Source: a virus. From it: a stretch of DNA of 42,165 bases. The stretch is from positions 1-42,165 of the IMG/VR virus record IMGVR_UViG_3300033145_002302. One strand, 5' to 3'. The translations under genes and the position numbers were made by a program. Below the pieces are notes generated by a model. That model was not told the origin of the DNA. It made no database searches and worked only from the letters and a program-made list of their open reading frames with translations. Positions within the stretch are counted from its first letter, which is position 1. Each line of letters starts with the position of its first letter. This document shows positions 5,877-24,691 of this stretch, piece by piece.

Positions 5877-6257
5877 ATGTTTAAAAAAATAAGTATTCTC
5901 ACTTTTATGGTTATGATTGTGTTGTGCATGACCATGAAAGTATTCGCAATAGAACAGTTTAACCTTGACCAAAGAGTCCAGATGGCTGTGGTTACAAACA
6001 CAGAATCCACAGTTGTTTCAGAAATTACGGTACATAATAGGATACTCGGATACAGATTCGTCGATTCTATTGGCGGAAAAATATTTGTATTCGATACCGC
6101 TACGTCGGAAAGCACCGACAGTAATACAATCATAGTTGATGGTTGTAGAGCTGGAGATAGCACAGGTGATTGGTTTGCGTATCCGTACCAAGTTTCATCT
6201 GGAATAATCACGGTCAATGTTGGTGGAACTGGTGAGTTAATCATCTATTACGAATAG
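5877..6257 (+). CDS. Signal-peptide-bearing protein in the capsid block
   Basis: A 126-residue protein. Residues 1-24 form a good Sec signal peptide: basic n-region MFKK, hydrophobic core ILTFMVMIVLCMTM, and a VFA cleavage site before IEQFN. AAGGAG at 5863-5868 places the start at the signal peptide and not downstream. The mature part is beta-rich with many Thr/Ser/Gly (GGKIFVFDTATSESTDS), like small virion or fibre-associated proteins. It is the last gene before the terminator at 6274. Export of a protein encoded directly after the capsid gene is unexpected. I do not recognise the family. Confidence 0.75.
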   Translation: MFKKISILTFMVMIVLCMTMKVFAIEQFNLDQRVQMAVVTNTESTVVSEITVHNRILGYRFVDSIGGKIFVFDTATSESTDSNTIIVDGCRAGDSTGDWFAYPYQVSSGIITVNVGGTGELIIYYE

Positions 6258-6273
6258 GAAATAGAGGTGAGTT

Positions 6274-6305
6274 AAAAAAAGGGCAGGTTTGCCCCTGCCC
6301 TTTTT
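6274..6305 (+). terminator. Strong rho-independent terminator after the capsid block
   Basis: GGGCAGG (6281-6287) pairs with CCTGCCC (6294-6300) around a six-base loop. The stem is extended by A-U pairs and followed by TTTTT. The A-tract on the left would also let it work leftward. Confidence 0.93.
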
Positions 6306-6335
6306 CGGCATTATTATTTTATTATAAGGATTGAA

Positions 6336-6542
6336 ATGGGCATAGGATTTAAACCTACGATTGGAATTTGTGACAAATGCGGGACAGAGAAAAGTTATTT
6401 GTTTGAATATAGATCAGATTATTGGATATGTAAAGCCAATGAATGCTTCCAGGAAGAAGTTGAACGTGATTCAGGAAGGCATGTAAGAAAAAATGATAAA
6501 CTAGAAGATTATCGTAAACTTGTCGCTGGGACTGGAGGGTGA
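6336..6542 (+). CDS. Small zinc-ribbon-like protein
   Basis: A 68-residue protein with ICDKCG (Cys13 and Cys16 region) and WICKANEC further on, giving four cysteines in two CxxC/CxxxxC pairs that could hold one zinc. AAGGA precedes the ATG. Function unknown. It is one of about nine small Cys-pair proteins in this genome. Confidence 0.6.
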   Translation: MGIGFKPTIGICDKCGTEKSYLFEYRSDYWICKANECFQEEVERDSGRHVRKNDKLEDYRKLVAGTGG

Positions 6543-6544
6543 GA

Positions 6545-6766
6545 ATGAAAAGAAGAAAAAAGAAAGAAATAGTCAAGAAAGATGAAAAACCTGTTGTTGA
6601 ATCATCAAAGCCTTTTGAGACCACAGATTTTCAAATGGCTGTGAAATTAAGTAATATGGGATTTACAATTTCAGAAGCAAGGTCTCCTTTTGCAGAAAGA
6701 AAATGTAAACTTTATGTATTTGTGGAAAGTGAACAAGCGGTTAAGGAGGTGCTAAATGGCGGGTAA
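6545..6766 (+). CDS. Small hypothetical protein with Lys-rich N-terminus
   Basis: A 73-residue protein. GGAGG at 6534-6538 favours the ATG at 6545 over the in-frame GTG at 6539, which overlaps the previous stop. Residues 1-20 are almost all Lys, Arg and Glu. The remainder (KLSNMGFTISEARSPFAERK, then KLYVFVESEQAVKEVL) looks like a small alpha/beta fold. Its end overlaps the next gene. Function unknown. Confidence 0.55.
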   Translation: MKRRKKKEIVKKDEKPVVESSKPFETTDFQMAVKLSNMGFTISEARSPFAERKCKLYVFVESEQAVKEVLNGG

Positions 6767-7046: not shown

Positions 7047-7050
7047 AGCC

Positions 7051-7347: not shown

Positions 7348-7937
7348 TGTTCTTTAGAAAAATTGTTGATAAGATTATTGATTTTGAAGTCGAGAGGCGT
7401 AAAAAAGAGGTTGAACAACGCCTTGAGATAGAAAAAGATAAACTTTGGATGGAATTGGCTACCAAACGACAGGAAGTCTATGTCTTAACAACAGAGCTTG
7501 AGACTCAAATCAAAGGAATAGAAAAGACGCGCCAGAAGGCCGAGGAAGAACAGAAAGGTCTTTGGGAACGTCTTGATATTCTAAAAGATAATCTTAATGC
7601 TAATGGTGTGATGAATAGGTTGTGGGAATGCGCTTATTCAAAGGCGATAGATGCGGTCTGGAGTATTTTAAAAAAAGAAACCATTCATTTAACTGAATTA
7701 GCTAATGAAGATGGACAAAACAAGGCCAAAGAAGAAGCCAATAAGCAATATGAAAAGAAATTAGACGACATCATCAAAAAAGATATGAGCTTAATCAATA
7801 TCCCTCTTTTATACAAATTGAAAGAAGAATCACGCCAACAATATTTAATTTTTCAGCGTTCAAAAGATAATGAAAAAGTTCAATATTTTAAAGGACAGAT
7901 TGATTTAATTGCGGAGATTCTTAATGAAAAGAAATAA
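7347..7937 (+). CDS. Coiled-coil protein in the head-tail module
   Basis: A 196-residue protein dominated by a long charged coiled coil (residues about 12-85, heptad-rich Glu/Lys/Leu), followed by a helical domain with Trp residues near 95-110. GAGGAG precedes the ATG at 7347, which overlaps the previous stop (an upstream TTG is possible). It has no signal peptide. In this position it could be a scaffold-like or tail-assembly chaperone-like protein; the role is not shown by the sequence. Confidence 0.6.
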   Translation: MFFRKIVDKIIDFEVERRKKEVEQRLEIEKDKLWMELATKRQEVYVLTTELETQIKGIEKTRQKAEEEQKGLWERLDILKDNLNANGVMNRLWECAYSKAIDAVWSILKKETIHLTELANEDGQNKAKEEANKQYEKKLDDIIKKDMSLINIPLLYKLKEESRQQYLIFQRSKDNEKVQYFKGQIDLIAEILNEKK

Positions 7938-8301
7938 TTTTTTCCTTTATAGCTTTTTGATATTGTTGTTTATCGCGCCTATAAGTTATGGACAATCATC
8001 AGATGTTTCAATAGAGCCTTTAGACAATGGCATAAAACAGACGGTTGTTCAAGTTTTAGATTCTGCGACACCTCTTCCTGCTACGGCTTTATCTGGAAGA
8101 AAATCTCTTATAGTAAAAAATCTGGATAGCACTTATACGATTTATTTAGGGGCGTCTGATGTTACGGCTGACGAGGCCTCAACTGGCGGCTATCCTTTAG
8201 GTTATTACGAGAGTTTTCAGGCGGACTTAGGGGAGAATACGATACTTTATGGAATCTCAACAAGCGTTCCTCCTAAAATTGTTATAATAGAAGCGAGGTA
8301 A
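7924..8301 (+). CDS. Signal-peptide-bearing beta-rich protein
   Basis: A 125-residue protein. Residues 1-23 form a Sec signal peptide: MKRNN, hydrophobic FFLYSFLILLFIAPI, then SYG before QSSDVS. GGAG at about 7912-7915 supports the ATG at 7924, which overlaps the end of the coiled-coil gene. The mature part is beta-rich (SGRKSLIVKNLDSTYTIYLGASDVTADEA). This type of segment resembles small surface-exposed virion proteins. Its position before the adaptor gene makes a cytoplasm-assembled virion part expected, so the signal peptide is unusual. Confidence 0.7.
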   Translation: MKRNNFFLYSFLILLFIAPISYGQSSDVSIEPLDNGIKQTVVQVLDSATPLPATALSGRKSLIVKNLDSTYTIYLGASDVTADEASTGGYPLGYYESFQADLGENTILYGISTSVPPKIVIIEAR

Positions 8302-8303
8302 TT

Positions 8304-9023
8304 ATGACGCAAACTCAATTATTAAAAATGTGCCGTCTTTCCGTGCCGGAGATAGATAGCATTGATGTTATTGAAGATGATGACCTTTTACTTTTTCTTA
8401 ATTTAGGCTGCAAAGAGTTCATAAAAGTTACAGATGCTCTTCCTACGTCAATAACATTTAATTTGATTGAAGACTTAACAACCTACCCGCTTTCAACCTA
8501 TGTTACTAGTTTTGGTAAGATAAGAAAAGAAGGATTATGGCTATATAACTCGGAAAATACAAAATGGGATCAACTGGATTCCACAACAGTCTCTTATCTT
8601 AATAAACATTATGCAAGCTGGATGAACACAAGGTCTCAATTACCACAAAGATTTTCTATAGACGGTGATGATTTAACCTTGCATCCAAAAGCCAGTTCGA
8701 CTTATGCCGGTGATAATTATCTAAAGCTGTTTTTCTTTAAACGCTCCTTGGATATGTCGGATGGTTCTCATTATCCCTTTTCAGGATCTACTACGGAATA
8801 TCCGCATTTAGCGGACTATGAAGATGTTCCGGTTGAATATGTGCGTTATAAAGTTAAACAGATGCTTAAGAAGAATGCAGACGCTGAAGAAGCTAAGACA
8901 ACCTTTTACCTGAAAAGCGCTGACGCAAAGCAAAAACTACAATATAGGCCGGATTTGATTCCAGAAGTAAGAGCGCATGGTGCAGGTAATCTTTTATTTC
9001 ATAAGGAGGCTTTCAAACGCTGA
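8304..9023 (+). CDS. Head-to-tail adaptor (connector) protein
   Basis: A 239-residue protein in the place of the podoviral adaptor that links the portal to the tail hub. It begins with a helical segment (LLKMCRLSVPEIDSIDVIED, with LLLFLNLGCKEFIKVTDALP), has a beta-rich middle containing PQRFSIDGDDLTLHPKASST, and ends with helices carrying VEYVRYKVKQMLKKNADAEEA. This helix-beta-helix order is seen in phage adaptor-type proteins. It overlaps the hub gene by one base (TGATG). The assignment rests on gene order and this layout. Confidence 0.65.
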   Translation: MTQTQLLKMCRLSVPEIDSIDVIEDDDLLLFLNLGCKEFIKVTDALPTSITFNLIEDLTTYPLSTYVTSFGKIRKEGLWLYNSENTKWDQLDSTTVSYLNKHYASWMNTRSQLPQRFSIDGDDLTLHPKASSTYAGDNYLKLFFFKRSLDMSDGSHYPFSGSTTEYPHLADYEDVPVEYVRYKVKQMLKKNADAEEAKTTFYLKSADAKQKLQYRPDLIPEVRAHGAGNLLFHKEAFKR

Positions 9024-11383
9024 TGGTTACTTCTCTTCGCAACGCAACAGAAGTTACGGTATCAATTGATAATTTTAAGACCTTGGCCAGAAAGACTAAG
9101 GGAGAACTTCTTGATCCAAGTATAGGCCATGAGGGGCAAAATATTCGTTTTAATGAAGAATATGGTTCATTTGAAAAACGCCTGTCAAGATCAAGGTATT
9201 TTGGTATGTCTTCCATTGGTTCATCAAGAATACCTTTTTCATACCGTTATTATAAAAATTCTGATTCCACAAAGAAACTTATTGTTGCTTATGATACTAC
9301 TTTAAAAATTGGAGATGATGCTGTAGGAACCTTTACTAATATTAAAACTGGTCTTACTGCCGGTCTTAGGTGGATAGGAATAACTTTTAAAGACCTTTGG
9401 TATGGCATTAATGGAACAGATACCGCGCAGGTTTATGATGGAACTAACGTCGAGGATATGGGCGTTCCCACTGGAACCACTCCGACGTTTAATGCTTTTT
9501 CTGGGACAGGACTTACAGGGAACTATTATTACAAAGTAAGTAATTTTATAGACGGTTATCAGGAAGGTAACGCTTCTGTTGCTTCAACAGTTATAGCCCC
9601 GTCTAACCAGGGCGTTAAATTAAATATTCCTGTTTCAACTAATACCCGGGTTACTAAACGCTGGCTTTACAGGACAGAGGCAGGTGGTTCTATATATTAT
9701 TTTTGTAAAGAAATTGATAATAATACGGATACTACGGTTACGGATAATGTCGCAGACGGTTCTTTAGATACTGCTATTACCGCTCCTACGGACCATGGGT
9801 CTCCGGGCGCGTATAAGTATATGGCATTACATAAGTCAAGGGTTTTTAAATTCCGAAATTCAACATTTCAGTCAAGAGTAATCTATTCGGATATACGTTC
9901 TGGAACATCTTATCCCGATGTCTTTCCCGCACTTAATTATTTCGATATTTTGAGGGATAATGGCGAAGAAGGAACAGTCATCATAGAGGATAATTTTGGT
10001 CAACTTATTTGCATGAAACCTTCCGCAGTAGTCAAGATTAACACGGATACTGACGATCCTGTAGGATGGTCTGGTTATACTCATGTATTATCAATGAATG
10101 GATGTATAGCCCCTCACTCTATAGCTAAGACTCCAATAGGGATTATTTATTTAACGAGATATGCTGAGAGAAAAAAGATTCTTATGGTGTGGACTGGTTC
10201 AAGAGCCGAACCTATCTTTCAAGAACTTGAACCCATTTTATCTGCTATTTTAGAATCAAGAGTAAGCGAAATAACAGGACACTATCATAATGGTTCATAT
10301 CATTTATCTTATACAGAGCCAACTACAGGTAACAGTTTTAATGATAGAGTCCTTATTATAGATTTATTCTCTGGTTCCTGGGTTATTGATAAGAAGAATG
10401 TAGATTCTTTTTGTAGCTGGAATAATAAAAATGATGACGGCCAGCTTTATACAAGCACATCTGATCTTACTGGTTTTGTTTATAGAGAAGATACCCTGAT
10501 TCAGGATTTGCAAATTAAACTGAAATCTGATTTTGATTTAGGGACCATAACTTCTAATCTTACTTCAGGAGGATCAGAACAATCTCCTACCTTAAGCCTT
10601 AATTCAGGCGTCTTAGATGATGTAGGGGCTAAAGTAGTTTCGACCGTTACAGATACCGTATCTGATTTAACAGGGGATCAAGAAACAGTTTCACCGTCTG
10701 GCTTATACACTTCTCCTGTTTTAGAAGTAAATGCAACTCAGCTTAAATATGTTTTTTGGAATGCCTCAGTTGGTTCTCATGGAACTATTTATTTTTTTAT
10801 TAGGACCTCAGATACTGTAGCAGGGATAGCAACCGCTACATGGCATGGTCCTTTTGCTTCTTCAGGGGACGATTTATCAGCGATAGCCGGCAGAAGATAC
10901 CTTCAATATAAGGCAAGATTAAGTATTTTAGGAGATTACGTCAGTAATTATGGTGATGTTGTTTTATCCAGAGGAGCAACCCCTAATGATTATGTGTTTA
11001 AGATAAGCTTGGGCCTTGGGACACTTGCTGAATCTTCTATCGAGATGATTCATACTTCTCATTGGCTTGATTTTGGATGGGTTAATCCTATTTTTAAAAG
11101 GCTAAAGAAAAATTTTCATCAGGTAAGGATAGATTTTGAGCGTACTGAAGAAAGCGGGAATTTGACTTTTGGGTATTATCTTGATGGTTCTTCGACGAGA
11201 ACAGATAAGGTTTTTTCATTTGCCACATACGCTTCCAGAGGTTATGTGATTTATCAATTTCCAATAGCAACTTTTGCCAATAGAATAAAATACCGTTTTT
11301 ATCATAATGACGATGCCGAAAGTTTAAAAATTAAAGCTTTGCATTTTACCTTCACCATAGAACCCAGAGGCGAAACTTTTTGA
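9023..11383 (+). CDS. Tail hub/nozzle beta-propeller protein
   Basis: A 786-residue, strongly beta-rich protein that follows the adaptor. Repeated blade-like stretches (KDLWYGINGTDTAQVYDGTNVED; EDNFGQLICMKPSAVVKINTD; GIIYLTRYAERKKILMVWTG) and an ALHKSRVFKFRN stretch near residue 273 are typical of podoviral tail-hub proteins (P22 gp10-like/T7 gp12-like role) that close the portal channel after packaging. Residues about 490-786 form a second beta domain. No signal peptide. This gene is the main evidence for a short-tailed virion; family identity is inferred from layout. Confidence 0.7.
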   Translation: MVTSLRNATEVTVSIDNFKTLARKTKGELLDPSIGHEGQNIRFNEEYGSFEKRLSRSRYFGMSSIGSSRIPFSYRYYKNSDSTKKLIVAYDTTLKIGDDAVGTFTNIKTGLTAGLRWIGITFKDLWYGINGTDTAQVYDGTNVEDMGVPTGTTPTFNAFSGTGLTGNYYYKVSNFIDGYQEGNASVASTVIAPSNQGVKLNIPVSTNTRVTKRWLYRTEAGGSIYYFCKEIDNNTDTTVTDNVADGSLDTAITAPTDHGSPGAYKYMALHKSRVFKFRNSTFQSRVIYSDIRSGTSYPDVFPALNYFDILRDNGEEGTVIIEDNFGQLICMKPSAVVKINTDTDDPVGWSGYTHVLSMNGCIAPHSIAKTPIGIIYLTRYAERKKILMVWTGSRAEPIFQELEPILSAILESRVSEITGHYHNGSYHLSYTEPTTGNSFNDRVLIIDLFSGSWVIDKKNVDSFCSWNNKNDDGQLYTSTSDLTGFVYREDTLIQDLQIKLKSDFDLGTITSNLTSGGSEQSPTLSLNSGVLDDVGAKVVSTVTDTVSDLTGDQETVSPSGLYTSPVLEVNATQLKYVFWNASVGSHGTIYFFIRTSDTVAGIATATWHGPFASSGDDLSAIAGRRYLQYKARLSILGDYVSNYGDVVLSRGATPNDYVFKISLGLGTLAESSIEMIHTSHWLDFGWVNPIFKRLKKNFHQVRIDFERTEESGNLTFGYYLDGSSTRTDKVFSFATYASRGYVIYQFPIATFANRIKYRFYHNDDAESLKIKALHFTFTIEPRGETF

Positions 11384-11395
11384 TAAGGAGATCCT

Positions 11396-12109
11396 ATGAA
11401 AAGATTAGTTTTTATTTTAATGTTGTTTTTCCCTACTTTAGTTTTTGCTAATTGGAATAGTGCAACAGATATGCAATCTAAAACAGTCAGCGCCGCTTTC
11501 ACACAAACGCAAGATAGTCTTAAGGCGCTTGACGGTACATCCGGGAGCGGGCCGACAACTGTTCATACTAAGACATCTTTTGAAATCGAAGGAGCTACAG
11601 TAGACGCTTACGAACAAACTTTCCAAACAACAGATCCGACAGCAGACAGAGTGATTATTTTTCCTGACGATAGTTTAGCGCAAGGTGATATTATTTATGG
11701 CTCAGCCGCAAATACTTTGGGGTATTTATCAGCACCTTCGGCTATTTCTTCGCAGTTTCTTCAAACTCAAACCAGTCTTGGGAACCCAAGATGGGCTTAT
11801 ACGAGCAGTTGGATTAATTTTAGTGGGGTAGAGGTTCATTCAATCTTTGGTAGTGTTAATGTTGTATCCGTCACCGACAATGGAGCAGGTGATTATACTA
11901 TAACTTGGGATAAAGATTTTGCTAATGCCAATTATGTCGTTGTTGGTGCAGGAAGAAGGATAAGCGGAGCATCTAAACATACGGCTCTTTTAGCTGTTAA
12001 AAAAGGGACTACCCCGCAAATAGGAAGTGTTAATATCGTTTTTTTAAGTGAAAGTGATGATCCCATTGATCCTGAAATCTGCATGGTTATTGGAATAGGG
12101 GATTATTAA
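11396..12109 (+). CDS. Tail-fibre-like protein with Sec signal peptide
   Basis: A 237-residue protein. Residues 1-18 form a clear signal peptide (MKRLVFILMLFFPTLVFA, then NWNS), placed directly behind AAGGAGAT. The body has tail-fibre character: the linker phrase IFPDDSLAQGDIIYGSAANTLGYL, common in phage fibres and their tips, followed by a compact C-terminal beta domain (VTDNGAGDYTITWDKDFANANYVVVGAGRR) that looks like a receptor-binding tip. It follows the tail hub gene. A fibre synthesised with a cleavable export signal is odd for a tailed phage. Confidence 0.75.
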   Translation: MKRLVFILMLFFPTLVFANWNSATDMQSKTVSAAFTQTQDSLKALDGTSGSGPTTVHTKTSFEIEGATVDAYEQTFQTTDPTADRVIIFPDDSLAQGDIIYGSAANTLGYLSAPSAISSQFLQTQTSLGNPRWAYTSSWINFSGVEVHSIFGSVNVVSVTDNGAGDYTITWDKDFANANYVVVGAGRRISGASKHTALLAVKKGTTPQIGSVNIVFLSESDDPIDPEICMVIGIGDY

Positions 12110-12126
12110 GAATAAGGAGGAATAAA

Positions 12127-12564
12127 ATGAAAAGACTTTTTTTAATAGCAATTCTGTTGTTTTCTATGGTTAGGTTTTCTTATGCTATAAAAGTTCGCGT
12201 AGTCTATAAACCTGATAAATCTATATCAGTTATTTATCCAGTACCAGGTTCAAGAAAACCCGGTGAAACCGAAGCACAATGGCTTCAAAGAGTCTTTGAT
12301 GAAACGATGAGTGGTGAATTATCGAATCTTCCCTATGATGATATGGATGATTCTCAATTACCAGCTACAAGGATAGACAGAGACGCATGGGAAGGTGAAA
12401 AAGGTAGGCCAATTGAACTTAATTCAGAAAAGACAAAAAGAACTAAAGATGAAAAATTATTGGAAAAAGAAGTCGAGAGACAAGGAAAAGAAGAAAACAT
12501 TAAACAGAAATTAAATTTAACAAACGAAGACTTTGAAAATTTACGGGAAGCACTAATTTTATGA
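12127..12564 (+). CDS. Exported charged protein of the tail module
   Basis: A 145-residue protein. Signal peptide at residues 1-20 (MKRLFLIAILLFSMVRFSYA) behind AAGGAGG. The mature part begins with a short beta region (IKVRVVYKPDKSISVIYPVPG), then a GETEAQWLQRVFDETM helix, and ends in a Lys/Glu-rich coiled tail. The start of the mature region resembles small phage proteins found between fibre genes, perhaps a fibre chaperone or attachment factor. I cannot name the function. Its stop overlaps the next start (ATGA). Confidence 0.65.
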   Translation: MKRLFLIAILLFSMVRFSYAIKVRVVYKPDKSISVIYPVPGSRKPGETEAQWLQRVFDETMSGELSNLPYDDMDDSQLPATRIDRDAWEGEKGRPIELNSEKTKRTKDEKLLEKEVERQGKEENIKQKLNLTNEDFENLREALIL

Positions 12565-12788: not shown

Positions 12789-12791
12789 ACT

Positions 12792-13145
12792 ATGGATACT
12801 TTAATTGATGTGATGGCTGAATTAGATGCACGGGATGAATATTTTAAAAAGATGTACGAAAAAGATAGATTGTTCATTTTTTTAAACGATGACAGCCAGG
12901 TCAGAGGCTTTATAAGTTATTTTATAAGTGATAATCCGAGAACAAGAACCGATATATGGTCTTTGCCAGACGATAACCCTCAAGGTAAATACATCTGTCT
13001 TGATAGATTAGTAACAGATAAACAGGGCGGTGTCAGAGATAATAAGAGGTCGTTTTTTAACTTTATAAAATTAAAACATCCTAATAAACAGATTATGTGG
13101 CATAGCAGACGAGGTAATCATGAAATATTCCCTAAAAATTCTTAG
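12792..13145 (+). CDS. Hypothetical protein, possibly GNAT-like
   Basis: A 117-residue alpha/beta protein. An acidic helix at the start (LIDVMAELDARDEYFKKMY) is followed by FIFLNDDSQVRGFISYFISD, which resembles the beta2-beta4 part of GNAT acyltransferases, then YICLDRLVTDKQGG and a final HPNKQIMWHSRRGN. Phages often carry such short GNAT-like proteins next to ejection-protein genes. The CoA-binding motif (R/Q-x-x-G-x-G/A) is not evident, so activity is doubtful. There is no clear ribosome binding site; the previous stop lies three bases upstream. It overlaps the next gene by 26 bases. Confidence 0.5.
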   Translation: MDTLIDVMAELDARDEYFKKMYEKDRLFIFLNDDSQVRGFISYFISDNPRTRTDIWSLPDDNPQGKYICLDRLVTDKQGGVRDNKRSFFNFIKLKHPNKQIMWHSRRGNHEIFPKNS

Positions 13146-14346
13146 TAGTAAAGATTTCGATAAGGTCGCAAATCGATACCCTAAAAAGCAACAAGACAGG
13201 ATTTTAAATTCTTGGGGGTTTGCTGACAAAAAAAGAAACTTAGCTTTTGTTAGAAGCAGAAGGAGAATAGGAGACGTGGCTCCTGTGGCCATGCACGAAA
13301 TTATGGAACTTTTGGCGACTGTCTCTCCACATGACGAAGATGGGATAAGAACTAAAGGCAAAGAACCTAAGGCGCCTGAAATCAAATATGCTACTGCTCC
13401 TGAATATGGAACTCAGATGGAATTATTTAAGAAGTATCAAGAGCCTTATTTAGAGAGTCAGGAAAAATTATATAGCGAGATTTTTGAACCTACAACAAGA
13501 CAAATAGGCGGATTGTTGCAGGCTGATTTGACAGAACCTTTTCAATTAGATGAAAATGTTTGGACGGATATTTGGCAACGAGCAAGAGAAAGAACTTTAG
13601 GAGAATTTGAACCTATTGAAAGGAGAACGACTCAAAGATTAGCTGGAAAAGGAGCATTAGATACAAGCGGACAGGCTTTAAAAGCTTTTCAGGATATAGA
13701 CTTGTCTAAAGCGAAGTCTATTGAAGATTTAGCGGTAGATCAGGCTATTGCTGAATGGACCGAAAAAAAATCAGCTAAACAACAGAGCTATTCAAATATT
13801 TTTAATTATTTAGGTGCAACACCTTCTTTTAATATACCCATGCCTCAAGCTCAACCTTACATTCAACCAGGGGAAGAGGGAGAATTAAATGTTGGACAAC
13901 AGATAGGTTCATGGTTTGCCCCACCTTATGCGGATACACTACGAGGTCAAGGATATAATGTTTCAGCTCCTTCAACAACAGATACAGCGCAAATGGCAAT
14001 GATGGCCGCCATGATGATGTGTTTGCCTAAAGATACTTTTATCGAGCTAGATGAAGGATATAAAAAAGTTCAGGATTTAAGAATTGGTGATAAGGTAAAG
14101 GGTGGAACAGTCATAGCTATAAATTCAGAAAAAATAGACACCACTCACAAATTTTATAAATTCACATTCAAGAAAGGTGTAGTCATAGCGAGTTTAGGTC
14201 ATCCATTCTATGATACTGCTATAGATATAAAGGAAACGGATCTGACAGGCGACAAGACTTATGACATTTTAACCGACAGCAAATTTTATTATATCAACGG
14301 TGTTAAGGTTGCTTCTACGCTTGATGTAAAGAGAGGAGGTAGGTGA
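13120..14346 (+). CDS. Putative ejection protein with C-terminal Hint (intein-like) domain
   Basis: A 408-residue protein behind GAGGTAAT. Residues 1-75 form a small domain ending in APVAMHEIMELL. Residues 95-285 are helical, Gln/Glu-rich and virion-like. A Met/Ala stretch (MAMMAAMMM) then leads into Cys301, which opens a Hint domain: block A CLPKDTFIELDEG, the KVQDLRIGDKV strand, and block B SLGHPFYD with His361 (the T-x-x-H position, here S-x-x-H). The end (FYYINGVKVASTLDV) resembles intein block F, but no His-Asn and no following nucleophile exist, so cleavage and not splicing is the expected chemistry. It is the first of three genes that look like internal virion proteins. Confidence 0.75.
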   Translation: MKYSLKILSSKDFDKVANRYPKKQQDRILNSWGFADKKRNLAFVRSRRRIGDVAPVAMHEIMELLATVSPHDEDGIRTKGKEPKAPEIKYATAPEYGTQMELFKKYQEPYLESQEKLYSEIFEPTTRQIGGLLQADLTEPFQLDENVWTDIWQRARERTLGEFEPIERRTTQRLAGKGALDTSGQALKAFQDIDLSKAKSIEDLAVDQAIAEWTEKKSAKQQSYSNIFNYLGATPSFNIPMPQAQPYIQPGEEGELNVGQQIGSWFAPPYADTLRGQGYNVSAPSTTDTAQMAMMAAMMMCLPKDTFIELDEGYKKVQDLRIGDKVKGGTVIAINSEKIDTTHKFYKFTFKKGVVIASLGHPFYDTAIDIKETDLTGDKTYDILTDSKFYYINGVKVASTLDVKRGGR

Positions 14347-15170: not shown

Positions 15171-18100
15171 ATGGCACGGTTAGTTTTAGACGAAGCTCCT
15201 TCTAAAAAACCTCAACTTGTTTTAGATGAACCTAAAGCAAGGCCTAGTTTTTTCCCTTCCCTTTGGCAAGAAAGTCTCGTTAAACCCGTGAAAAGTTTTT
15301 ATGGTGGAACTCTAAAGGCTTCTGCGGCTTTTGCAGATACACTAGACTTCTATGCCGATAAAGTTATGAATAAAATCGGCCTACCGCAAGCAACTAAGGG
15401 CGGTATTATTGAATATTTAAGAGATAACTGGCAATATTATGGCGATAAATTCCAAAAAGAAGGCGTAAGCAACAAACTCATAAAAGAAGTCTATTCTGGT
15501 CTTGGCAAGGCATTTTTTGATGTTCCTGTTAAATACATGGGGCCGGGAAAACTTTTAGGACCGGCTACTCTTCCTACTGTCGGAGCCATTGAAGGTTTCA
15601 GAGAAGGCGGTGTAAAAGGAGCGGCCGGAGGTGCTGCAAGCGGGGCATTGTATGGGGGTGTTTTACGGGGATTGGGAAAGCTACCTACTCCTTTAAAGAT
15701 TCCTACTGCTTTTGGAATAGGGGCCGGTACAACTCCCGGTGGTTTAGAAGAGAAGGTTGCAAGTGGAGCAATCTTAGCAGGATTAACGGCTGGTAAAGGT
15801 CCTTCTGCAAAACAATTTAAAGAAACACAATTAAAGTATTCGCCTCTCGGGAAAGCTTATCAAAAACTTCTTCCTTTTGAAAGACGAGAAAGTGCATATC
15901 AGAATTTTGTTAATCGTTTTCAATCCATAGAGAATACAGTTAAGAAAGCAAAGGAATTGGGCTTTAAGATCAAGCCCGGTGAAAATCCTGCGATTCGCGC
16001 TAGGACTTATTTAGGCATGGGTAACAAAGTCAGAACGACTTTAGAAAATAAAACCTATCGTATTACCCCAGAAGGCAAAATTGAAATTACTGGTGAAGGT
16101 TTAAAGCCAATATTGGATTTTTATGATAAAGCAAGTCCTGTTAAAAATAGAGTTTTGAGAGGTAGGGAATTAAAAAGTTATCTTGTTTCTCGTCGAACGA
16201 TTGAAGACCTACAGCGCCCTAAAGGAGAATTTACCCAGAAACAGATAGTCACTCCGCAACAAGTAACAACAGCAAAAAATACTTTGGCGAATCTTAACAA
16301 AAAATATAAAGGTAATGTTCAACATTTAGAACAGGCTGCACAACGTTTTTATGGTTATCAAAAAAGAGTGCTTCATCTTTTAGTCGATAGCGGCAATTTA
16401 TCACAAGAACAGTATAATACGATTCTTTCTAAGAACCCTAATTATGTTCCTTTCGACAGAGTTATTGAAGGGGTGGAGCTTGCCGGAACACTTGTCAGCA
16501 AAAGGAGATTTACGGGGGCGCGCGCGCCTATTAAGCGTATCAGAGGTTCAGAATTAGAAATCCAGAGTCCGATTGAGAATATGGTTAAAAATACTTACAA
16601 GATTATGGATGTAGCTGAAAGAAATACTGTTGCAAAAGGAGTAGCTCAATTAGGTAAGGTTCTACCTGAAGATATATCTCCATTAAAAATAAGAATGCAA
16701 CCAATTAAGGTTACGAAGGGGGAGGCAGGAGAAGCTAAAACTATCTTTAGGCCTTCTCAGTTTAAACCCAAGGGCAATGTTATAGAATATTTTGAAAATG
16801 GCAAACGTCAATATATAGAGGTAACACCTAATCTTCATCAAGCCATGACAGGCTTAAATGAGACTTCTAGCAGTCTTATGGTTAAGATGTTGTCTAAACC
16901 AGCTCATTGGCTTCGTGTAGGTGCGACAATTACGCCAGAGTTTATGATTAGGAACCCTATAAGAGATCAATATACGGCTTTAATGCAAACGAGCTTTGGT
17001 TTTAGACCATTCCTTGATCCGGCTGGAGCTTTAGCAGACATATTAGGAAAAAGTGAAGCATATCAAAATTGGTTTCGTTCTGGTGGGTCTTATTCTGGTT
17101 TTGTAGAATTAAACAGGCCGAGATTAACTCAAGCGGTAAAAGAACTCCAACGGCGTCCGAATCTTTTAAAAAAACTTAATATTATTACGACTGCGCAAGA
17201 TGCCAGTCAGTTATTTGAACAAGCAACTCGACTAGGCGTTTATAAAGCCGGAATTAAGAAAGGATTAACGCCAGTTGAGGCAGGATTTCAAAGCCGAGAA
17301 GCAACAGTAGATTTTGCGCGAAGAGGCGCAAAAACAAAAGATGTCAATGCTGTTATCGCATTTTTCAATGCTGGCATACAAGGAACAGATAAATCTATTA
17401 GGACGGCCATGGCAGACCCCGCGGGTTTTGCCGCAAAAGGGATTGCTTCTATAACGATTCCTTCTTTGTTGCTTTACATTAAAAATCGTAATGATCCAGA
17501 TTTTAAAGAGATTCCTCGATGGCAAAGAGATTTGTTCTGGGTAACAAAAGTAGGAGAAACTTATGCAAGGATTCCAAAGCCTTTTCTTTATGGACAGGTT
17601 TTTGGCTCTGTTCTTGAAAGGTTTTTAGAATATTTAGATACTCAAGACCCACAGGCGTTTAAACAGATTGAGAAATCACTATATGATGCCTTATCTCCTG
17701 TCCCGGGCGATCCTATGAGTGGATTGCTTCCTACTGCTATAAAGCCATTGATCGAAAATACGACTAATTGGAACTTCTTTTTAGAAAGAAATATTGTTCC
17801 CAAAGGTAAGGAGAGATTATTGCCTCAAGAACAATTTGGGCGCTATACATCAGAAACAGCAAAAGCAATGGGAAAGTTGATAAAACAATCTCCTAAGAAA
17901 ATTGAAAACTTAATACAGGGTTATTTTGGCGGGACTGGTCGATACGCTTTAGAAGGCGGGGACATGCTCATAAATTCTATTAAGAAAGCGACTGGCCAGC
18001 CTATTGAACCAGGAAGACCTAAAGAATTGGCTGATATTCCCTTAGTCAAAGGTTTTGTTACAAGGCCAGTCATAGGAGGACAAGCTGAAAGCATCCAGCA

Positions 18101-18428
18101 ATTTTATAACAATAGAGAACAGATTAATCAGGCCTATACTACTTATAAGAAATTGTTGAAAGATGGGAGAAAAGAAGAAGCAGGGCAAATAAAAAGTCAA
18201 TATCCGACTTTTCAATATGCTCCTGTTTTAAATTCCTATGCGGATATTTTTTCAAAATATAATAAGCGTATTGATAGTATTGTTCAATCCAGTGTATTCA
18301 ATGAGAAACAAAAAAGACGAATGATTGCAGATTTAGATAAAAAAAAGGTAGAATTAGCACAAAAGGCAAATAAATTAATCCAGAGAACTTTAAACAAGAA
18401 AAAACCAAGGTTGGTTTTAGATGAATAA
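15171..18428 (+). CDS. Large internal virion (ejection) protein, LPD38-like
   Basis: A 1085-residue protein, the largest in the genome, with AAGGAG before the start. Residues 1-25 carry two copies of LVLDE (RLVLDEAPSKKPQLVLDEP) and the last five residues are LVLDE again. Residues about 130-215 are Gly/Ala-rich and mildly hydrophobic, possibly membrane-interacting. Residues about 575-800 (EFMIRNPIRDQYTALMQTSF; EATVDFARRGAKTKDVNAVI; FFNAGIQGTDKSIRTAMADP; RWQRDLFWV) resemble the LPD38 domain of phage polyvalent proteins as I remember it. Such proteins are ejected with the DNA in podoviruses. No lytic transglycosylase motif seen. Confidence 0.7.
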   Translation: MARLVLDEAPSKKPQLVLDEPKARPSFFPSLWQESLVKPVKSFYGGTLKASAAFADTLDFYADKVMNKIGLPQATKGGIIEYLRDNWQYYGDKFQKEGVSNKLIKEVYSGLGKAFFDVPVKYMGPGKLLGPATLPTVGAIEGFREGGVKGAAGGAASGALYGGVLRGLGKLPTPLKIPTAFGIGAGTTPGGLEEKVASGAILAGLTAGKGPSAKQFKETQLKYSPLGKAYQKLLPFERRESAYQNFVNRFQSIENTVKKAKELGFKIKPGENPAIRARTYLGMGNKVRTTLENKTYRITPEGKIEITGEGLKPILDFYDKASPVKNRVLRGRELKSYLVSRRTIEDLQRPKGEFTQKQIVTPQQVTTAKNTLANLNKKYKGNVQHLEQAAQRFYGYQKRVLHLLVDSGNLSQEQYNTILSKNPNYVPFDRVIEGVELAGTLVSKRRFTGARAPIKRIRGSELEIQSPIENMVKNTYKIMDVAERNTVAKGVAQLGKVLPEDISPLKIRMQPIKVTKGEAGEAKTIFRPSQFKPKGNVIEYFENGKRQYIEVTPNLHQAMTGLNETSSSLMVKMLSKPAHWLRVGATITPEFMIRNPIRDQYTALMQTSFGFRPFLDPAGALADILGKSEAYQNWFRSGGSYSGFVELNRPRLTQAVKELQRRPNLLKKLNIITTAQDASQLFEQATRLGVYKAGIKKGLTPVEAGFQSREATVDFARRGAKTKDVNAVIAFFNAGIQGTDKSIRTAMADPAGFAAKGIASITIPSLLLYIKNRNDPDFKEIPRWQRDLFWVTKVGETYARIPKPFLYGQVFGSVLERFLEYLDTQDPQAFKQIEKSLYDALSPVPGDPMSGLLPTAIKPLIENTTNWNFFLERNIVPKGKERLLPQEQFGRYTSETAKAMGKLIKQSPKKIENLIQGYFGGTGRYALEGGDMLINSIKKATGQPIEPGRPKELADIPLVKGFVTRPVIGGQAESIQQFYNNREQINQAYTTYKKLLKDGRKEEAGQIKSQYPTFQYAPVLNSYADIFSKYNKRIDSIVQSSVFNEKQKRRMIADLDKKKVELAQKANKLIQRTLNKKKPRLVLDE

Positions 18429-20547
18429 AAAACTATTGACGTTAAAGTTTTTATTAATTTTTTTATTGGTTCCCTCAATTTGCTATGCCGGACGATTGGC
18501 AAGTGAAAGCCAGAATGGCGCCGTAGAAGGAACAGCTGTCAAATCTACAGGTGAAGGTGGGGGAACAAAATATCTTCGAGAAGATGGAGATGGCACTTCT
18601 TCATGGCAAACCCCCGCGGGTTCAGGTGACGTTACCTCTGTCGGAGATTGCACAGGTGGCGCTTGTTTTGATGGCACCTCTGATGGTGGTACTCATTTTG
18701 ATTTCTACGATGCGCAAGGTCGGACAAGGGTTATAGGAGGCGATACTGCTGGAGAGGTTACTTTAACACTTCCTATTACGACGGGCAATATGTGGTCAGA
18801 TGCTTTGACAGATATTATTAACGACACCCATATAGATTGGGGAACAGGAGCAAATCAAGTAAGTGCGGTAGATGTTCCAATAGCAGACTCAGGCAGTTAT
18901 TATACTGGCACGGAGGTAGAGACTGCGTTGCAAGAAGTAGGAGAAGCTGCTGCTGCGCACAGTATGAATGGATTTGAAAGTCGGAGCGATAGTACACTAG
19001 CTTGGGATAATGGTACTCGAACTCTGACGCTTGCTTCTACAAGCACAACCTACTATTGGATTGAAGGAATAAGATATTCATTTTCATCTGGAGCAGACGA
19101 AACGATAGCTATATCTGATGCTACAGGATTGCATTTAATATATATAGACAGTACACCAGCTTTACAGGAAATTGTTAATCCAAGCGAAGCACAAGTTGAT
19201 GATGCCATTCTAAATAAGTGTTTGGTAGCGACGATTTATTATAATACTACCGTATCTTATGACGTTGGTTACATTGTCGCAGACGAGCGGCACGGGACAG
19301 TAATGTCTCCACAGACACACCACTGGTTACATGATAATATGGGAGCAATGTATAAAGAGGGGTTTGCAATAAGTGCTTATACATTGAATACGGCAACAGA
19401 TGCCGCTGTATCTTATGACCTCTCGGATGGTGAGTATTATGATGAAGATATTGAACATGATATAGATAACGGAACAGCCAGTAATCAGTATGAACAGGTA
19501 TTACAAGGTGATGCAGAATTACCAGTTATATTCAAACTCACTGATGGAACATGGGTAGAGCAGGCCGCTAGCACTCTCCCTTATATTGTAGACGGAAGCA
19601 AGGACTTACAGTATATGGATACCGATAACACTTGGACGCAAACAACACTTGGCTCATCCAAATTCATGTTGATGTGGGTTGTGGCAACTAACGACTGGCA
19701 ATACCCAGTTAAAGCTGTTCAGGGAAGCCAAGAATATAATACTAAAGCGTTAGCACAGGCTGGTGCCGAAACAGAAATCATTGACTGGGGATCGTTACCC
19801 TCAGCAGAGTTTATAGTTATGTATCAGCTAATTATACAGCAAGCCAATGGCACTAACGTTAACGGCAAGATTATAGAGGTTATAGATTACAGGTTCTCAT
19901 CTATCACTGGTTCATCAGCAACCACACAAGACCACGGAAGTTTGAGCGGCCTATCGGACGATGACCATCCGCAGTATGCTCTTATAGCGGGAGATGTTTA
20001 TACAGGCACTCATGATTTTGGAGGGGCGACTTCCATAGAGGTCGTTAATGCTGCTGGAGATTTATCTTTAGACGCTGAAGGAGAAATAGGTGTTGATTCA
20101 GCTCAAAAACAACTTGGTGTATATGATGGCATTGAAGTAGCAATTCCTTTAAGGCATATTATTCAAGGTCAACTTGGCACAGGTGACTTTGACTCTGATC
20201 CCGATGTATTTATTTTAAGCCTCCACGCTGACACTTATCCTGACGGCATAGTCATTACTGCTTGGGAAGTTGATTGTAATGAGGCAGATCCCGATACTGA
20301 ACTCAACGCTAACCTTTATTTTTGCGATAGTAGAGGATCAGGAGCTTTCCCTGGGGCAAGTGCAACTTTGATTGATGTCTTAGACACAACGACTGGAAAT
20401 TCGAGTGAAGCTGATATGAGCAATTCAGACTTGACTAATGGAATTATCGCAACAGGTAAGGAGCTTTACATCACTATAGACGCTGATCCAACGTCTGATA
20501 CGACGTTGTTTAGGATTAAGATACATTTTTTTATTCCTGAGTCCTAA
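18421..20547 (+). CDS. Tail fibre with Sec signal peptide
   Basis: A 708-residue protein. Residues 1-23 are a signal peptide (MNKKLLTLKFLLIFLLVPSICYA, then GRLAS). The next 600 residues are Gly/Asp/Thr/Ser-rich beta structure. Near residue 500 lies TTQDHGSLSGLSDDDHPQYALIAG, the D-H-x-x-L-x-G-L-x-D-D-D-H-P-Q-Y motif that is a hallmark of phage tail fibres. The C-terminal ~130 residues form a compact beta tip. The ATG lies inside the terminal LVLDE codons of the upstream gene with AAGG about 10 bases before. Because the fibre motif is unmistakable, the leading signal peptide is strong evidence of exported fibre proteins. Confidence 0.88.
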   Translation: MNKKLLTLKFLLIFLLVPSICYAGRLASESQNGAVEGTAVKSTGEGGGTKYLREDGDGTSSWQTPAGSGDVTSVGDCTGGACFDGTSDGGTHFDFYDAQGRTRVIGGDTAGEVTLTLPITTGNMWSDALTDIINDTHIDWGTGANQVSAVDVPIADSGSYYTGTEVETALQEVGEAAAAHSMNGFESRSDSTLAWDNGTRTLTLASTSTTYYWIEGIRYSFSSGADETIAISDATGLHLIYIDSTPALQEIVNPSEAQVDDAILNKCLVATIYYNTTVSYDVGYIVADERHGTVMSPQTHHWLHDNMGAMYKEGFAISAYTLNTATDAAVSYDLSDGEYYDEDIEHDIDNGTASNQYEQVLQGDAELPVIFKLTDGTWVEQAASTLPYIVDGSKDLQYMDTDNTWTQTTLGSSKFMLMWVVATNDWQYPVKAVQGSQEYNTKALAQAGAETEIIDWGSLPSAEFIVMYQLIIQQANGTNVNGKIIEVIDYRFSSITGSSATTQDHGSLSGLSDDDHPQYALIAGDVYTGTHDFGGATSIEVVNAAGDLSLDAEGEIGVDSAQKQLGVYDGIEVAIPLRHIIQGQLGTGDFDSDPDVFILSLHADTYPDGIVITAWEVDCNEADPDTELNANLYFCDSRGSGAFPGASATLIDVLDTTTGNSSEADMSNSDLTNGIIATGKELYITIDADPTSDTTLFRIKIHFFIPES

Positions 20548-20947
20548 TCTTTTTTAGAAAGGCGTGTAATTTAAAATGAGCAGAACGGTTAGGAAGCAAC
20601 ATAAGATTGTTAATTTTATTATTCTTAGGGTTATTATCAATATGATGAACTATCTCAGATTTTTTAAGATAACGCTCAATGTGCTTTTCCATAACAAGGC
20701 GGTGCTTAGCAACATAACCTTTTATTGCATGAGGATGATAATGTTTAAGAATAAGAATATATTTTTTATCATTAGTTTTACCACCTTTCCAAAGAGGATG
20801 CTTGAAACCTTTTTGGAATCCAAGTTTAGGATTAATTCTATAAAGTTTCTTTCGAGATTTACTAATTCGTTTTTTGTGTTGAGGAGTAGCTTTATAGCCT
20901 TTTTTAAAACCACCTTTTGTTCCGTCTTTATTAAATCCTTTAGGCAT
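20531..20947 (-). CDS. HNH homing endonuclease, antisense insertion in the fibre region
   Basis: A 138-residue protein on the opposite strand to the late operon. The N-terminal half is basic with NUMOD3-like DNA-binding repeats (GGFKKGYKATPQHKKRISKS; FKHPLWKGG). The HNH nuclease core is HRLVMEKHIERYLKKSEIVH followed by HIDNNPKNNKINNLMLLP and SAHFKLH, containing His-His and Asn ligands as in phage HNH enzymes. It has AAGGAG before the ATG and its own consensus promoter (20974-21001). Its 3' end overlaps the fibre gene by 17 bases. It is a selfish element that cuts a site in DNA and copies itself in. Confidence 0.9.
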   Translation of the reverse strand: MPKGFNKDGTKGGFKKGYKATPQHKKRISKSRKKLYRINPKLGFQKGFKHPLWKGGKTNDKKYILILKHYHPHAIKGYVAKHRLVMEKHIERYLKKSEIVHHIDNNPKNNKINNLMLLPNRSAHFKLHAFLKKIRTQE

Positions 20948-20973
20948 AATGTTTATCTCCTTTCTAATACATT

Positions 20974-21001
20974 ATTATATCACAGGTATGTTAATTGTCA
21001 A
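20974..21001 (-). promoter_or_regulatory. Sigma70-type promoter for the HNH gene
   Basis: On the minus strand TTGACA (21001-20996), a 16-bp spacer and TATAAT (20979-20974), both perfect consensus hexamers. It reads only into the leftward HNH gene (start 20947), so the homing gene brings its own expression signal. Confidence 0.85.
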
Positions 21002-21012
21002 TAGGAGGTTTT

Positions 21013-21612
21013 ATGAAAGTTTTGATTTTGTGTTTCGTTTTATTAATGGCAAGCCCTTGTATGGTTCAAGCTGCAACCATCCAAACCGCACGGGGAGAGA
21101 TTATTGTTCAGGATGGAGAGGTTTTAAAACGTAATACAATGAGAGATGGGCAGATTGTCGGATTGAAAGATGTTGTATTCAATGGATGGAACTTTGCTCG
21201 ACCGAGTCAACCCCATAGTGAAATTTTTGTGAATTGTGAAAATTTAACTTTTTATCAATGTAATCTTACCAATGTTGAAATTCCGGCAGATTCAACAGTA
21301 ATTGATTGTCTAACAATTCATCGTAAAGAATATAACGAACACGGTAAAAGATATATTGAAATTCAATGCGGCGATAATAAAACTAGAACTTATGAAGTTG
21401 ACACAGAAATTGATTTAGTGGATGAGGATCTGATGGACATTGGTATTGAAGATTTATCTCCTCAACTAAAACAATCCATTGTAGAACATTATGTTTTAAA
21501 TGGTAAACCCACCATAAGTCAAGATGGCGAAGAATTAATATTAATTAATACAGAGGAAACCCCAAATGAAATTGGACAAGGTTATAGGCATATTAGTCGT
21601 TTTATTAATTAG
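21013..21612 (+). CDS. Exported tail-associated protein
   Basis: A 199-residue protein. AGGAGG at 21003-21008 fixes the ATG at 21013. Residues 1-20 are a signal peptide (MKVLILCFVLLMASPCMVQA). The centre (LKDVVFNGWNFARPSQPHSE followed by FVNCENLTFYQCNLTNVEIP) has a short-repeat beta pattern like a pentapeptide or beta-helix rung, often seen in phage fibre-network proteins; the end is acidic. It lies between the fibre and the spike, after the HNH insertion. Function unknown, possibly a spike cofactor. Confidence 0.7.
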   Translation: MKVLILCFVLLMASPCMVQAATIQTARGEIIVQDGEVLKRNTMRDGQIVGLKDVVFNGWNFARPSQPHSEIFVNCENLTFYQCNLTNVEIPADSTVIDCLTIHRKEYNEHGKRYIEIQCGDNKTRTYEVDTEIDLVDEDLMDIGIEDLSPQLKQSIVEHYVLNGKPTISQDGEELILINTEETPNEIGQGYRHISRFIN

Positions 21613-23080
21613 TTATACTGCATTTCCAATTATTACTAATTATTCAGGCTTTAAAATTGATTGGAGCTTTGCGGCAACAGTAGTAACTAATTATACGTGG
21701 ACAGAAAGATATGTTGATAATACTCTTTCCACAGATTTAAAAGCCGAAGGCACAGCAACTGGTGGCGGAAATGACTACATACTCTTGGAAGCTGGATCTG
21801 ATGGTTCTGATGATACCTATAATAATTATGGAGTCATGATTACGGGTGGTACGGGATATACGGCAGGAGCAAGACAAAGTAGAAGAATTATTGATTACGA
21901 CGCCACTGGTAATGGTAATGGAGAACTTTACGCACAGGTTGAATCTAATTGGGGAACTAACCCTGATGCTACTTCAACTTACGAAATTACCGTTGGCTCC
22001 GATTCCAATAATGGTGTAGCTGCTGGTCTTTATGGTGGAACCAACGGCGCATGGCGACAAATTCAACACGCCGTAGATACCGCTACGGCAGGTATGAGAA
22101 GCAATGTTTTATCGGGTCGTGAATATGATATAGCTGATGATATAAATCTTGATACCAACGATGGAACTTCAGATGATCCTATCGGATTATGGGGTTATAC
22201 TTCAACAATTGGTGACGGTGGAAAAGCCATCATTGATGGAACAAGTACAGCTTTGTATGTCTTGAGACATTCTAACGGTGCAGACCGTATGTTTATTCGA
22301 GATTTTGAATGGAAAAATGCTACAACTTATGTATATTGGGCAGATGGTTCTGGAACAGATGACACTATCTTATGGCAAAACTTAGTATCAGCTTCGGGAG
22401 GAGATGGTATTAATATTGCCGCTGGAGCTGGTCAATTTATTTATTATAACGAAATTACGGGTTGTACTAATCAGGGTATTGATGGGGCAGGATCGGGTGC
22501 TTTATATATGTGGAATTATATCCATGATATTACTGATATTGGTGTGGAAAATCCTTGGATTTTTATGCACAATATTGTTGATACAACGACAGGAGAATCG
22601 AATTTATCATGTGTTGATGAAAATATTATTATGTATAATTTATTGTACAATGCTTCAGGAGCCGGAGATCATAATATTGACTTAGGCTCAACGGCGGAAA
22701 GAAGTCAAATTATCAATAATATTATGCATACGGCAAACGATCATAATGCACACATGGCTGCAGGAAGCAATGTTTGGATTTATGGTTATAATGTTACATT
22801 TAATGCTGGAAATGGGACAGAAGAAGATTGGCTAGTCGTAATGAATATTGATGGTTTTCAAACAGGAGATCCCGATTTAGTTGATCCTGCCAATGCAACC
22901 CCAGCAAACAACGACTTTAATTTAGGAAGTTCAACAACGATTGATGATGATGGATTCCCTGATAGTTTTCCAGGGATTTCTAATACGGATGGTCATATGG
23001 AAATGGGAGCAACACCTTATGAAGAAACAGGTGGTGGCGTAGGCGGCGGCGGTCGTCGAGCAGGATGGTCTATTCAATGA
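21566..23080 (+). CDS. Right-handed beta-helix tail spike with signal peptide
   Basis: A 504-residue protein overlapping the previous gene by 47 bases, with GAGG upstream. Residues 1-20 are hydrophobic (MKLDKVIGILVVLLISYTAF), a signal peptide or anchor. From about residue 190 the chain shows rungs typical of a parallel beta-helix (pectate-lyase-like): AIIDGTSTALYVLRHSNGAD, MFIRDFEWKNATTYVYW, YYNEITGCTNQGIDGAGSG, IYGYNVTFNAG, as in polysaccharide-degrading tailspikes. The protein ends GGGVGGGGRRAGWSIQ, a Gly-rich tail. Catalytic residues cannot be assigned by eye. Probably binds or cleaves host surface glycans. Confidence 0.75.
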   Translation: MKLDKVIGILVVLLISYTAFPIITNYSGFKIDWSFAATVVTNYTWTERYVDNTLSTDLKAEGTATGGGNDYILLEAGSDGSDDTYNNYGVMITGGTGYTAGARQSRRIIDYDATGNGNGELYAQVESNWGTNPDATSTYEITVGSDSNNGVAAGLYGGTNGAWRQIQHAVDTATAGMRSNVLSGREYDIADDINLDTNDGTSDDPIGLWGYTSTIGDGGKAIIDGTSTALYVLRHSNGADRMFIRDFEWKNATTYVYWADGSGTDDTILWQNLVSASGGDGINIAAGAGQFIYYNEITGCTNQGIDGAGSGALYMWNYIHDITDIGVENPWIFMHNIVDTTTGESNLSCVDENIIMYNLLYNASGAGDHNIDLGSTAERSQIINNIMHTANDHNAHMAAGSNVWIYGYNVTFNAGNGTEEDWLVVMNIDGFQTGDPDLVDPANATPANNDFNLGSSTTIDDDGFPDSFPGISNTDGHMEMGATPYEETGGGVGGGGRRAGWSIQ

Positions 23081-24678: not shown

Positions 24679-24691
24679 ATTAAAAGTGAAA

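Follow-up and report, generated by a model that had tools for sequence, protein, structure and literature searches.

Sec-type signal peptides on fibres and other outer virion genes of a group of uncultured podovirus-like phages, and a possible two-compartment assembly of their virions

The standard view of tailed phages is that their whole assembly takes place inside the cytoplasm. Here we analyse seven genes between positions 5,877 and 23,080 of the virus record IMGVR_UViG_3300033145_002302 (42,165 bases, classed as linear in IMG/VR, 38% GC; this whole stretch is called the window below), whose products start with predicted Sec-type signal peptides and which lie inside the late virion operon of what reads, by gene content, as a podovirus-like tailed phage. 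Two kinds of exported phage protein are already known, namely non-virion proteins of tailed phages and the signal-bearing coat proteins of filamentous ones. Lom, the spanins and the signal-arrest-release (SAR) or Sec-dependent endolysins are likewise products of phage late genes that use the host Sec pathway, and a Sec-type endolysin has been described (PMC8951688); however, the target of these proteins is the envelope, and they do not belong to the particle. The pIII and pVIII proteins of filamentous (Ff) phages are virion proteins with Sec signal peptides that are assembled at the envelope (PMC4823517), but Ff phages have no capsid to fill and are extruded without lysis, whereas the window belongs to a DNA-packaging tailed phage with portal and capsid.

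The gene order of the window (portal, scaffold, capsid, adaptor, nozzle, internal proteins, fibre) is that of the podovirus tail machines of T7 and P22 (nozzles gp12 and gp10, respectively), and the window nozzle matches the PHROG family of head closure Hc3, which is the label of P22 gp10. The T7 tail assembles on the portal after packaging and seals it (PMC6702177). In our scan the virion genes of T7 and P22 were without signal peptides, whereas here the fibres, the decoration-type proteins and, in one clade, the nozzle carry them. The locus also resembles the downstream fibre chaperones (T4 gp38, Mu Tfa, V22 gp27; PMC7289586) in having a small gene directly after a fibre gene, but here both the fibre and its small partner bear signals, as if the helper followed the fibre across the membrane. 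The P22 ejection protein gp7 has an N-terminal leader that is removed by the host protease OpdA (NC_002371 annotation); this leader, however, is not a Sec signal peptide, and gp7 is an internal protein that is not exported.

To score signal peptides, we used a custom scorer that combines n-region charge, hydrophobic core and the residues at −3/−1, with a threshold of 4.4. When calibrated on E. coli K-12, 21 of 23 exported proteins reached at least 4.4, and no cytosolic protein did (highest score, 3.0). The seven open reading frames (ORFs) of the window scored 4.68–6.54, and their hydrophobic cores of 8–16 residues have the length of signal peptides rather than that of transmembrane anchors. 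With the same scorer and gene caller, 7 of 25 virion-module genes passed in the window, compared with 1 of 106 in six control phages (T7, lambda, P22, HTVC010P, Lederberg, and Pascal), where the sole passing gene was lambda lom, which encodes a known outer-membrane protein. The Fisher p-values against the controls (3e-5 for the window, 4e-10 for the group of related phages described below) are indicative only, because genes of related phages are not independent. Of 70 IMG/VR ORFs that are complete at the 5′ end and contain the fibre hallmark GL....DDDHPQY, none passed at the chosen start. Taken with the 1 of 106 in the controls, signal peptides on fibres are therefore rare and not a property of the DDDHPQY motif. 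A chance origin of the hydrophobic N-termini in the window was rejected by randomisation: random N-termini drawn from each protein's own composition passed in 0–19 of 2000 trials, and when the first 30 residues were shuffled, the observed score was reached in 0–8 of 2000 trials for six of the seven proteins.

Related phages carry the same feature. We found three relatives in IMG/VR (L001, L006, and L007) with the large internal protein encoded at 15171 in the window, which is 63–67% identical in them and served as the anchor gene, and five more (L142–L145 and L147) with two nozzles; IMG/VR searches with the window nozzle and portal as queries gave no relatives. Signal-bearing virion-region genes were present in all nine contigs of the group (the window and its eight relatives). 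Manual counts, with transmembrane-like hits set aside, gave three such genes in L001 (plus a fibre with an unclear start), four in the L006 record, six in the L007 record, one in L142, four in L143, three in L144 (one of lipoprotein type), nine in the L145 record, and three in the L147 record. The L006 contig begins inside the operon, and its four genes lie in the other half. The Manatee Spring podovirus MW202898, which has a related internal protein, carries one signal-bearing fibre-type gene. INPHARED searches with the nozzle, the 12127 product and the N-terminal part of the L007 fibre gave no matches, and a scan of genome contigs for the host returned only a remote locus (25%) in a Clostridia metagenome-assembled genome. 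That signal peptides are borne by outer virion genes of this group is, as a prediction from sequence, close to certain.

All seven window genes were recovered on the + strand (named here by their start positions; a slash marks the best-scoring cut). Gene 5877 (5877..6257; score 5.94) encodes a small protein directly 3′ of the major capsid gene and has an AAGGAG Shine-Dalgarno sequence and a signal peptide of 24 aa (5877–5948; MFKKISILTFMVMIVLCMTMKVFA/IEQ), so that the predicted N-terminal peptide would be IEQFNLDQR if cleaved and VFAIEQFNLDQR if uncleaved. It is possible that this product is a head decoration; signal-bearing genes stand at the same post-capsid place in the related loci L146, L147, L150, and L152. 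The small virion-module protein of gene 7924 (7924..8301; score 5.12; signal peptide of 23 aa at 7924–7992, MKRNNFFLYSFLILLFIAPISYG/QSS) matches, in its mature part, a PHROG family of unknown function (phrog_30212, E 7.7e-5). Gene 11396 (11396..12109; score 6.54; 18 aa at 11396–11449, MKRLVFILMLFFPTLVFA/NWN) encodes a tail-fibre-like protein whose residues 123–208 match phrog_11355 tail fiber (E 3.8e-7), and it is followed by gene 12127 (12127..12564; score 5.93; 20 aa at 12127–12186, MKRLFLIAILLFSMVRFSYA/IKV) for a small partner-like protein with a charged C-terminal half.

The fibre gene 18421 (18421..20547; score 6.49) has a signal peptide of 23 aa (18421–18489, MNKKLLTLKFLLIFLLVPSICYA/GRL) and the motif DHGSLSGLSDDDHPQY at 19930–19977. 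Its C-terminal ~180 aa are common to L007_14124 (58%), L145_2331 (55%) and L150_16388 (34%), and all four proteins bear signals. Gene 21013 (21013..21612; score 6.29), with an AGGAGG Shine-Dalgarno sequence, starts at an ATG within a mechanically called TTG ORF beginning at 20995 and encodes an exported-type protein of 199 aa (signal peptide of 20 aa at 21013–21072, MKVLILCFVLLMASPCMVQA/ATI). The 504-aa product of gene 21566 (21566..23080), a likely fibre or beta-helix protein, has the lowest score of the seven (4.68); its best cut (MKLDKVIGILVVLLISYTA/FPI) is not convincing, and the segment may be a signal anchor instead of a signal peptide. The last large fibre-region gene of L007 (15727) has a clean signal peptide and a NosD/beta-helix Pfam match, and no sequence match was found between it and the 21566 product. 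An antisense HNH-type gene (20531–20947, − strand) sits directly upstream of signal-bearing gene 21013, an arrangement also seen at L001:6199–6780 (− strand) and, as a remnant, at L007:5653–5850.

A sequence-only reading of this DNA had proposed that all seven genes begin with Sec-type signal peptides, six of them with an A-x-A-like site and most behind a strong Shine-Dalgarno sequence. These proposals agree with our predictions: every gene scores above the threshold, and a basic n-region, a core and small residues at −3/−1, with a clear A-x-A-type site, are found in six (only partly, and with a weaker site, in 21566). The Shine-Dalgarno sequence is strong in four genes (5877, 11396, 12127, and 21013), moderate in 7924 and 21566, and weak in 18421, whose start overlaps the upstream stop. 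The same reading held the 18421 product to be surely a fibre; this was too strong a word for the DDDHPQY motif alone, but the 11396 product matches a PHROG tail-fibre family, and three other phages have signal-bearing homologues of the 18421 product.

The inner parts of the particle are different. In the operons of the group, the portal, scaffold, adaptor, and ejection-type proteins are without Sec signal peptides, and so is the major capsid protein, although the capsid L146_3516 passes the scorer with a leader of a different kind and a few hydrophobic internal or membrane proteins (e.g., L145_13515) pass for other reasons. The window has its portal, major capsid and nozzle in podovirus order (phrog_156, phrog_371, and phrog_8040; + strand, as are the adaptor-position and 15171 genes). 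These are the portal at 828..2846 (E 3.7e-4; signal peptide score −5.1), the scaffold position at 3557–4363, assigned by gene order, the major capsid at 4871..5851 (E 2.7e-5; Pfam Mu-like_gpT; −4.2), a gene at 8304..9023 in the adaptor position 5′ of the nozzle by synteny with L001 and L142–L145 (−4.24), the untagged nozzle homologue at 9023..11383 (head closure Hc3, E 1.1e-10), and the untagged large internal or ejection-type protein at 15171..18428 (phrog_9854, E 4.5e-119), 3′ of which lie the fibres and then the replication genes (PD-(D/E)XK nuclease, RecT). Judged by predicted signals, the division between tagged and untagged genes tracks the outside and the inside of the particle.

The strongest evidence comes from outside the window, from the tail nozzle of relatives. 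Nozzle homologues in L001, L142, L143, L144, and L145 are all signal-bearing (5/5; scores 5.4–7.4), are 28–31% identical to the window nozzle and 40–63% to the L001 nozzle, and each lies directly 3′ of an untagged adaptor gene. Pairwise, their signals keep just 3–8 identical residues, whereas the mature nozzles align at once after the signal, from DFSKGLNS... onwards. Such divergence with a kept pattern is as expected if the properties of the segment rather than its sequence are under selection. Homology to the signal-less nozzles of the window, Microcystis phage MaAM05 and L007 starts at L001 residues 26–35, and the predicted cut falls after residue 23; no start codon that could give a cytoplasmic form was found near the mature N-terminus of the L001 nozzle. 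An AlphaFold model of the nozzle alignment had a mean predicted local distance difference test (pLDDT) score of 39.6.

A similar junction is found at the fibre partner. A small signal-bearing gene follows a signal-bearing fibre gene not only in the window but also in L001, L007, L144, and L145. The L001 partner (7559–7918) matches signal-less proteins of Vibrio phage vB_CoeS_P1 and Aeromonas phage 2L372D from its residue 21–22 onwards, against residue 2–3 of those proteins, with the L001 cut after residue 19; the L001 signal peptide is therefore an exact prefix. In both of these phages the gene before that of the partner codes for a fibre or tail protein, and the C-terminal part of this protein matches the L001 fibre. 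The L001 fibre itself shows no clear signal start, since an antisense HNH gene sits there, and its homologue L145_11766 has a clean signal and a Shine-Dalgarno sequence. Likewise, the match of L145_647 to phrog_28213 begins at residue 19 of the protein and at position 5 of the profile. Neighbouring fibre and partner genes thus both appear to have acquired signals, which would make sense if a fibre needs its helper on the far side of the membrane. The matches of the L001 partner were all to hypothetical proteins encoded beside fibre or tail genes, and none was to a known chaperone family; the 12127 product had no PHROG match, chaperone families included. We had considered 12127 a homologue of L001_7559 from its position, but BLASTP gave no match, and position alone is what the two have in common.

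A second type of leader occurs in L006, L146/L007, L147, and L001 (L150:11130–13397, L006:364–5778, L146:3516–4847, L147:2995–5183, and L001:8263–9000). It is a hydrophobic or amphipathic helix ending in D/N/S-x-x-G, carried by one or more of the scaffold, capsid, adaptor, internal protein, and one fibre (e.g., MWWKLLWSIILDQRG/EEPG in a scaffold and MLEHLKKFFLAILLDIRG/WDTE in a capsid), and it too is an added prefix, because the capsid profile phrog_334 starts only after it. Its ends resemble those of Flp prepilin leaders (..FLKDESG/). The E5 residue and the hydrophobic stretch expected after a cleaved G were not found and the following residues are not pilin-like, so these proteins are leader-bearing without being pilins. 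A prepilin peptidase (Peptidase_A24, PF01478) lies within the virion gene region of both the L007 record (L007:4882–5259, 59 bits) and the L006 record (L150:10246–10611, 47 bits), each time with both catalytic Asp motifs (FDIK/FTDIK and GGGD/CGGD). The peptidase was not found in the L145 record, and neither it nor the second leader was found in the window. The combination may point to a broader connection of virion assembly with the membrane, which we offer as a lead and not as a result.

What the sequence itself shows is that signal peptides are present, that they are confined to outer virion parts, and that they are placed exactly in front of otherwise ordinary phage proteins. From these we infer export in the true host, cleavage, presence in the particle, and a time and place of joining. 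Specifically, we lean, with modest confidence, towards a two-compartment assembly of the virion in this group. The portal, scaffold, major capsid, adaptor, and ejection proteins would be made and assembled in the cytoplasm, where the head would be filled. The fibres, fibre-partner proteins, post-capsid decoration-type proteins and, in one clade, the nozzle would be made with Sec signal peptides, pass through SecYEG, be cut by signal peptidase I, and fold or trimerise in the periplasm. These outer parts would then join filled heads at lysis, when the inner membrane is breached, or join heads docked at the membrane. Signal peptides on tail parts, if they work as predicted, argue against cytoplasmic tail-to-head assembly for this group. 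Particles in extracts can acquire P22 tailspikes or T4 tail fibres, and tail parts of P22 can be joined to the portal in vitro, so that joining at a late stage is conceivable.

Several points weigh against this model. The scorer also passes some membrane proteins and lipoproteins and a few transmembrane segments, and the working of the signals in the true host is a prediction from sequence. The window's own nozzle is untagged, and the window would therefore represent a milder state in which fibres and decoration-type proteins are tagged and the nozzle is not. For the tagged window proteins, the case for a virion role is made up of a single match to a fibre domain, a single fibre motif, synteny, and the relatives. 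Cysteines (0.81 vs. 0.55 per 100 residues) give no strong sign of disulfide-dependent folding; disulfide-driven export, which we had considered, is not supported by these counts. The weakest point is the route of an exported nozzle to the portal and the retention of DNA until then: the podovirus nozzle seals the portal after cytoplasmic packaging (PMC6702177), and an exported nozzle would need another way to the head.

It could be argued that the tagged window proteins are exported but are not virion parts, being instead lectins, adhesins or depolymerases of a fibre-like kind that sit in the periplasm or at the surface of infected cells, serving superinfection exclusion, masking, or coat digestion. 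Phages do export surface proteins (one of them, lambda Lom, also passes our scorer), virion-family matches are weak or lacking for six of the seven window proteins, and L001_14689 and L145_17251 are short exported proteins encoded outside the tail operon. However, the nozzle itself is tagged in five relatives, and we know of no use or surface role of a nozzle outside the virion, which makes secreted by-products unlikely for the group. The tagged genes also lie inside the head-tail operon amid essential virion genes, a fibre cassette of tailed phages has counterparts of the L001 fibre and partner, and no Pfam or PHROG match to a known moron or superinfection-exclusion family was found among the seven window proteins. 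We consider this explanation rather unlikely, but worth keeping for single proteins. The sequence-only reading had left the choice between export followed by joining and a shielding or exclusion role at the host surface; the former is now better supported, mainly by the nozzle signals in five relatives, and the latter, though less probable, could apply to individual window proteins.

A quite improbable alternative is that the N-terminal segments do not serve export and resemble signal peptides by convergence, being hydrophobic docking peptides within the particle or segments that insert into the host membrane at infection. Virion proteins often dock by N-terminal peptides, and the second leader type on the scaffold, capsid and adaptor of some relatives would fit. 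Yet all three signal-peptide regions are present, including small residues at −1/−3, and shuffled sequences seldom match them; the segments diverge strongly among homologues with the pattern kept, unlike a docking peptide, and they have been added to nozzles that elsewhere do without them. We give only a slim chance to a scheme in which the signals serve to recruit ribosomes or nascent chains to the inner membrane and assembly takes place on its cytoplasmic face, with translocation incomplete or the location dual. Membrane-type leaders stand on the scaffold and/or capsid in L006, L007/L146, and L147, two of these records encode a prepilin peptidase, an enzyme that in pili acts at the cytoplasmic face, and the 21566 segment resembles a signal anchor. 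Against this, all window signals but one combine good cleavage sites with the short cores usual in fully translocated proteins, and the second leaders and peptidase were not found in the window. An artefact of wrong starts, chance hydrophobic N-termini, or chimeric assembly is hardly credible: although the 18421 start has a weak Shine-Dalgarno sequence, 21566 is near the threshold and 2 of 44 spurious window ORFs pass the scorer, the same pattern recurs in nine separate contigs, Shine-Dalgarno sequences are good at most starts, and chance rates are far lower.

A broader version of the two-compartment model can be put forward tentatively, and we think it somewhat less probable than its negation. 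The lineage would assemble its virion across the inner membrane, with outer parts and, in one clade, the nozzle exported by Sec; in other members the capsid and scaffold would be anchored to the membrane through prepilin-like leaders that the phage's own A24 peptidase cleaves, and head and tail would come together at the membrane or through it, either before lysis or in the course of it. Searches of open-access literature, which cannot prove absence, turned up no tailed phage that packages DNA and has Sec signals on its fibres, decorations and nozzle; the earlier claim that no system of this kind was known to have been described is consistent with these searches. We regard the mechanism as moderately likely. 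If it is true, the order of assembly, the retention of DNA and the part played by lysis would have to be reconsidered in these phages, fibres could be modified outside the cytoplasm (disulfides, glycosylation), and signal peptides could reveal virion genes in unculturable phages.

With regard to such modification, GT-C and Wzy_C-type enzymes work at the periplasmic side of the membrane. The window encodes a polytopic membrane protein with a C-terminal TPR region (24686–26125; TPR matches) that may resemble GT-C mannosyltransferases, and L007:411–1568 weakly matches Wzy_C (O-antigen ligase); these enzymes could modify exported fibres. The endolysin-like protein at L006:12930–13448 has an N-terminal signal or signal-anchor segment, which suggests Sec-exported lysis in one relative. 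The related short signal-bearing proteins at L001:14689–15093 and L145:17251–17667 (..LSITDLVKKIPNLKQG..), which follow the fibre region outside the tail operon, are possibly a small outer-membrane protein of the phage. Elsewhere in the window, outside 5877–23080, we noted one more plain signal peptide in the replication region (32947–33282; MRRTLLLVVAIMFVCGLLCMPVFA/EGT) and a small lipoprotein near the window end (40276–40461). Lastly, the internal virion protein at 13120–14346 has a C-terminal part (CLPKDTFIELDEGYKKVQDLRIGDKV..LGHPFYDT) that has no Pfam match and looks to be of Hint/intein type.

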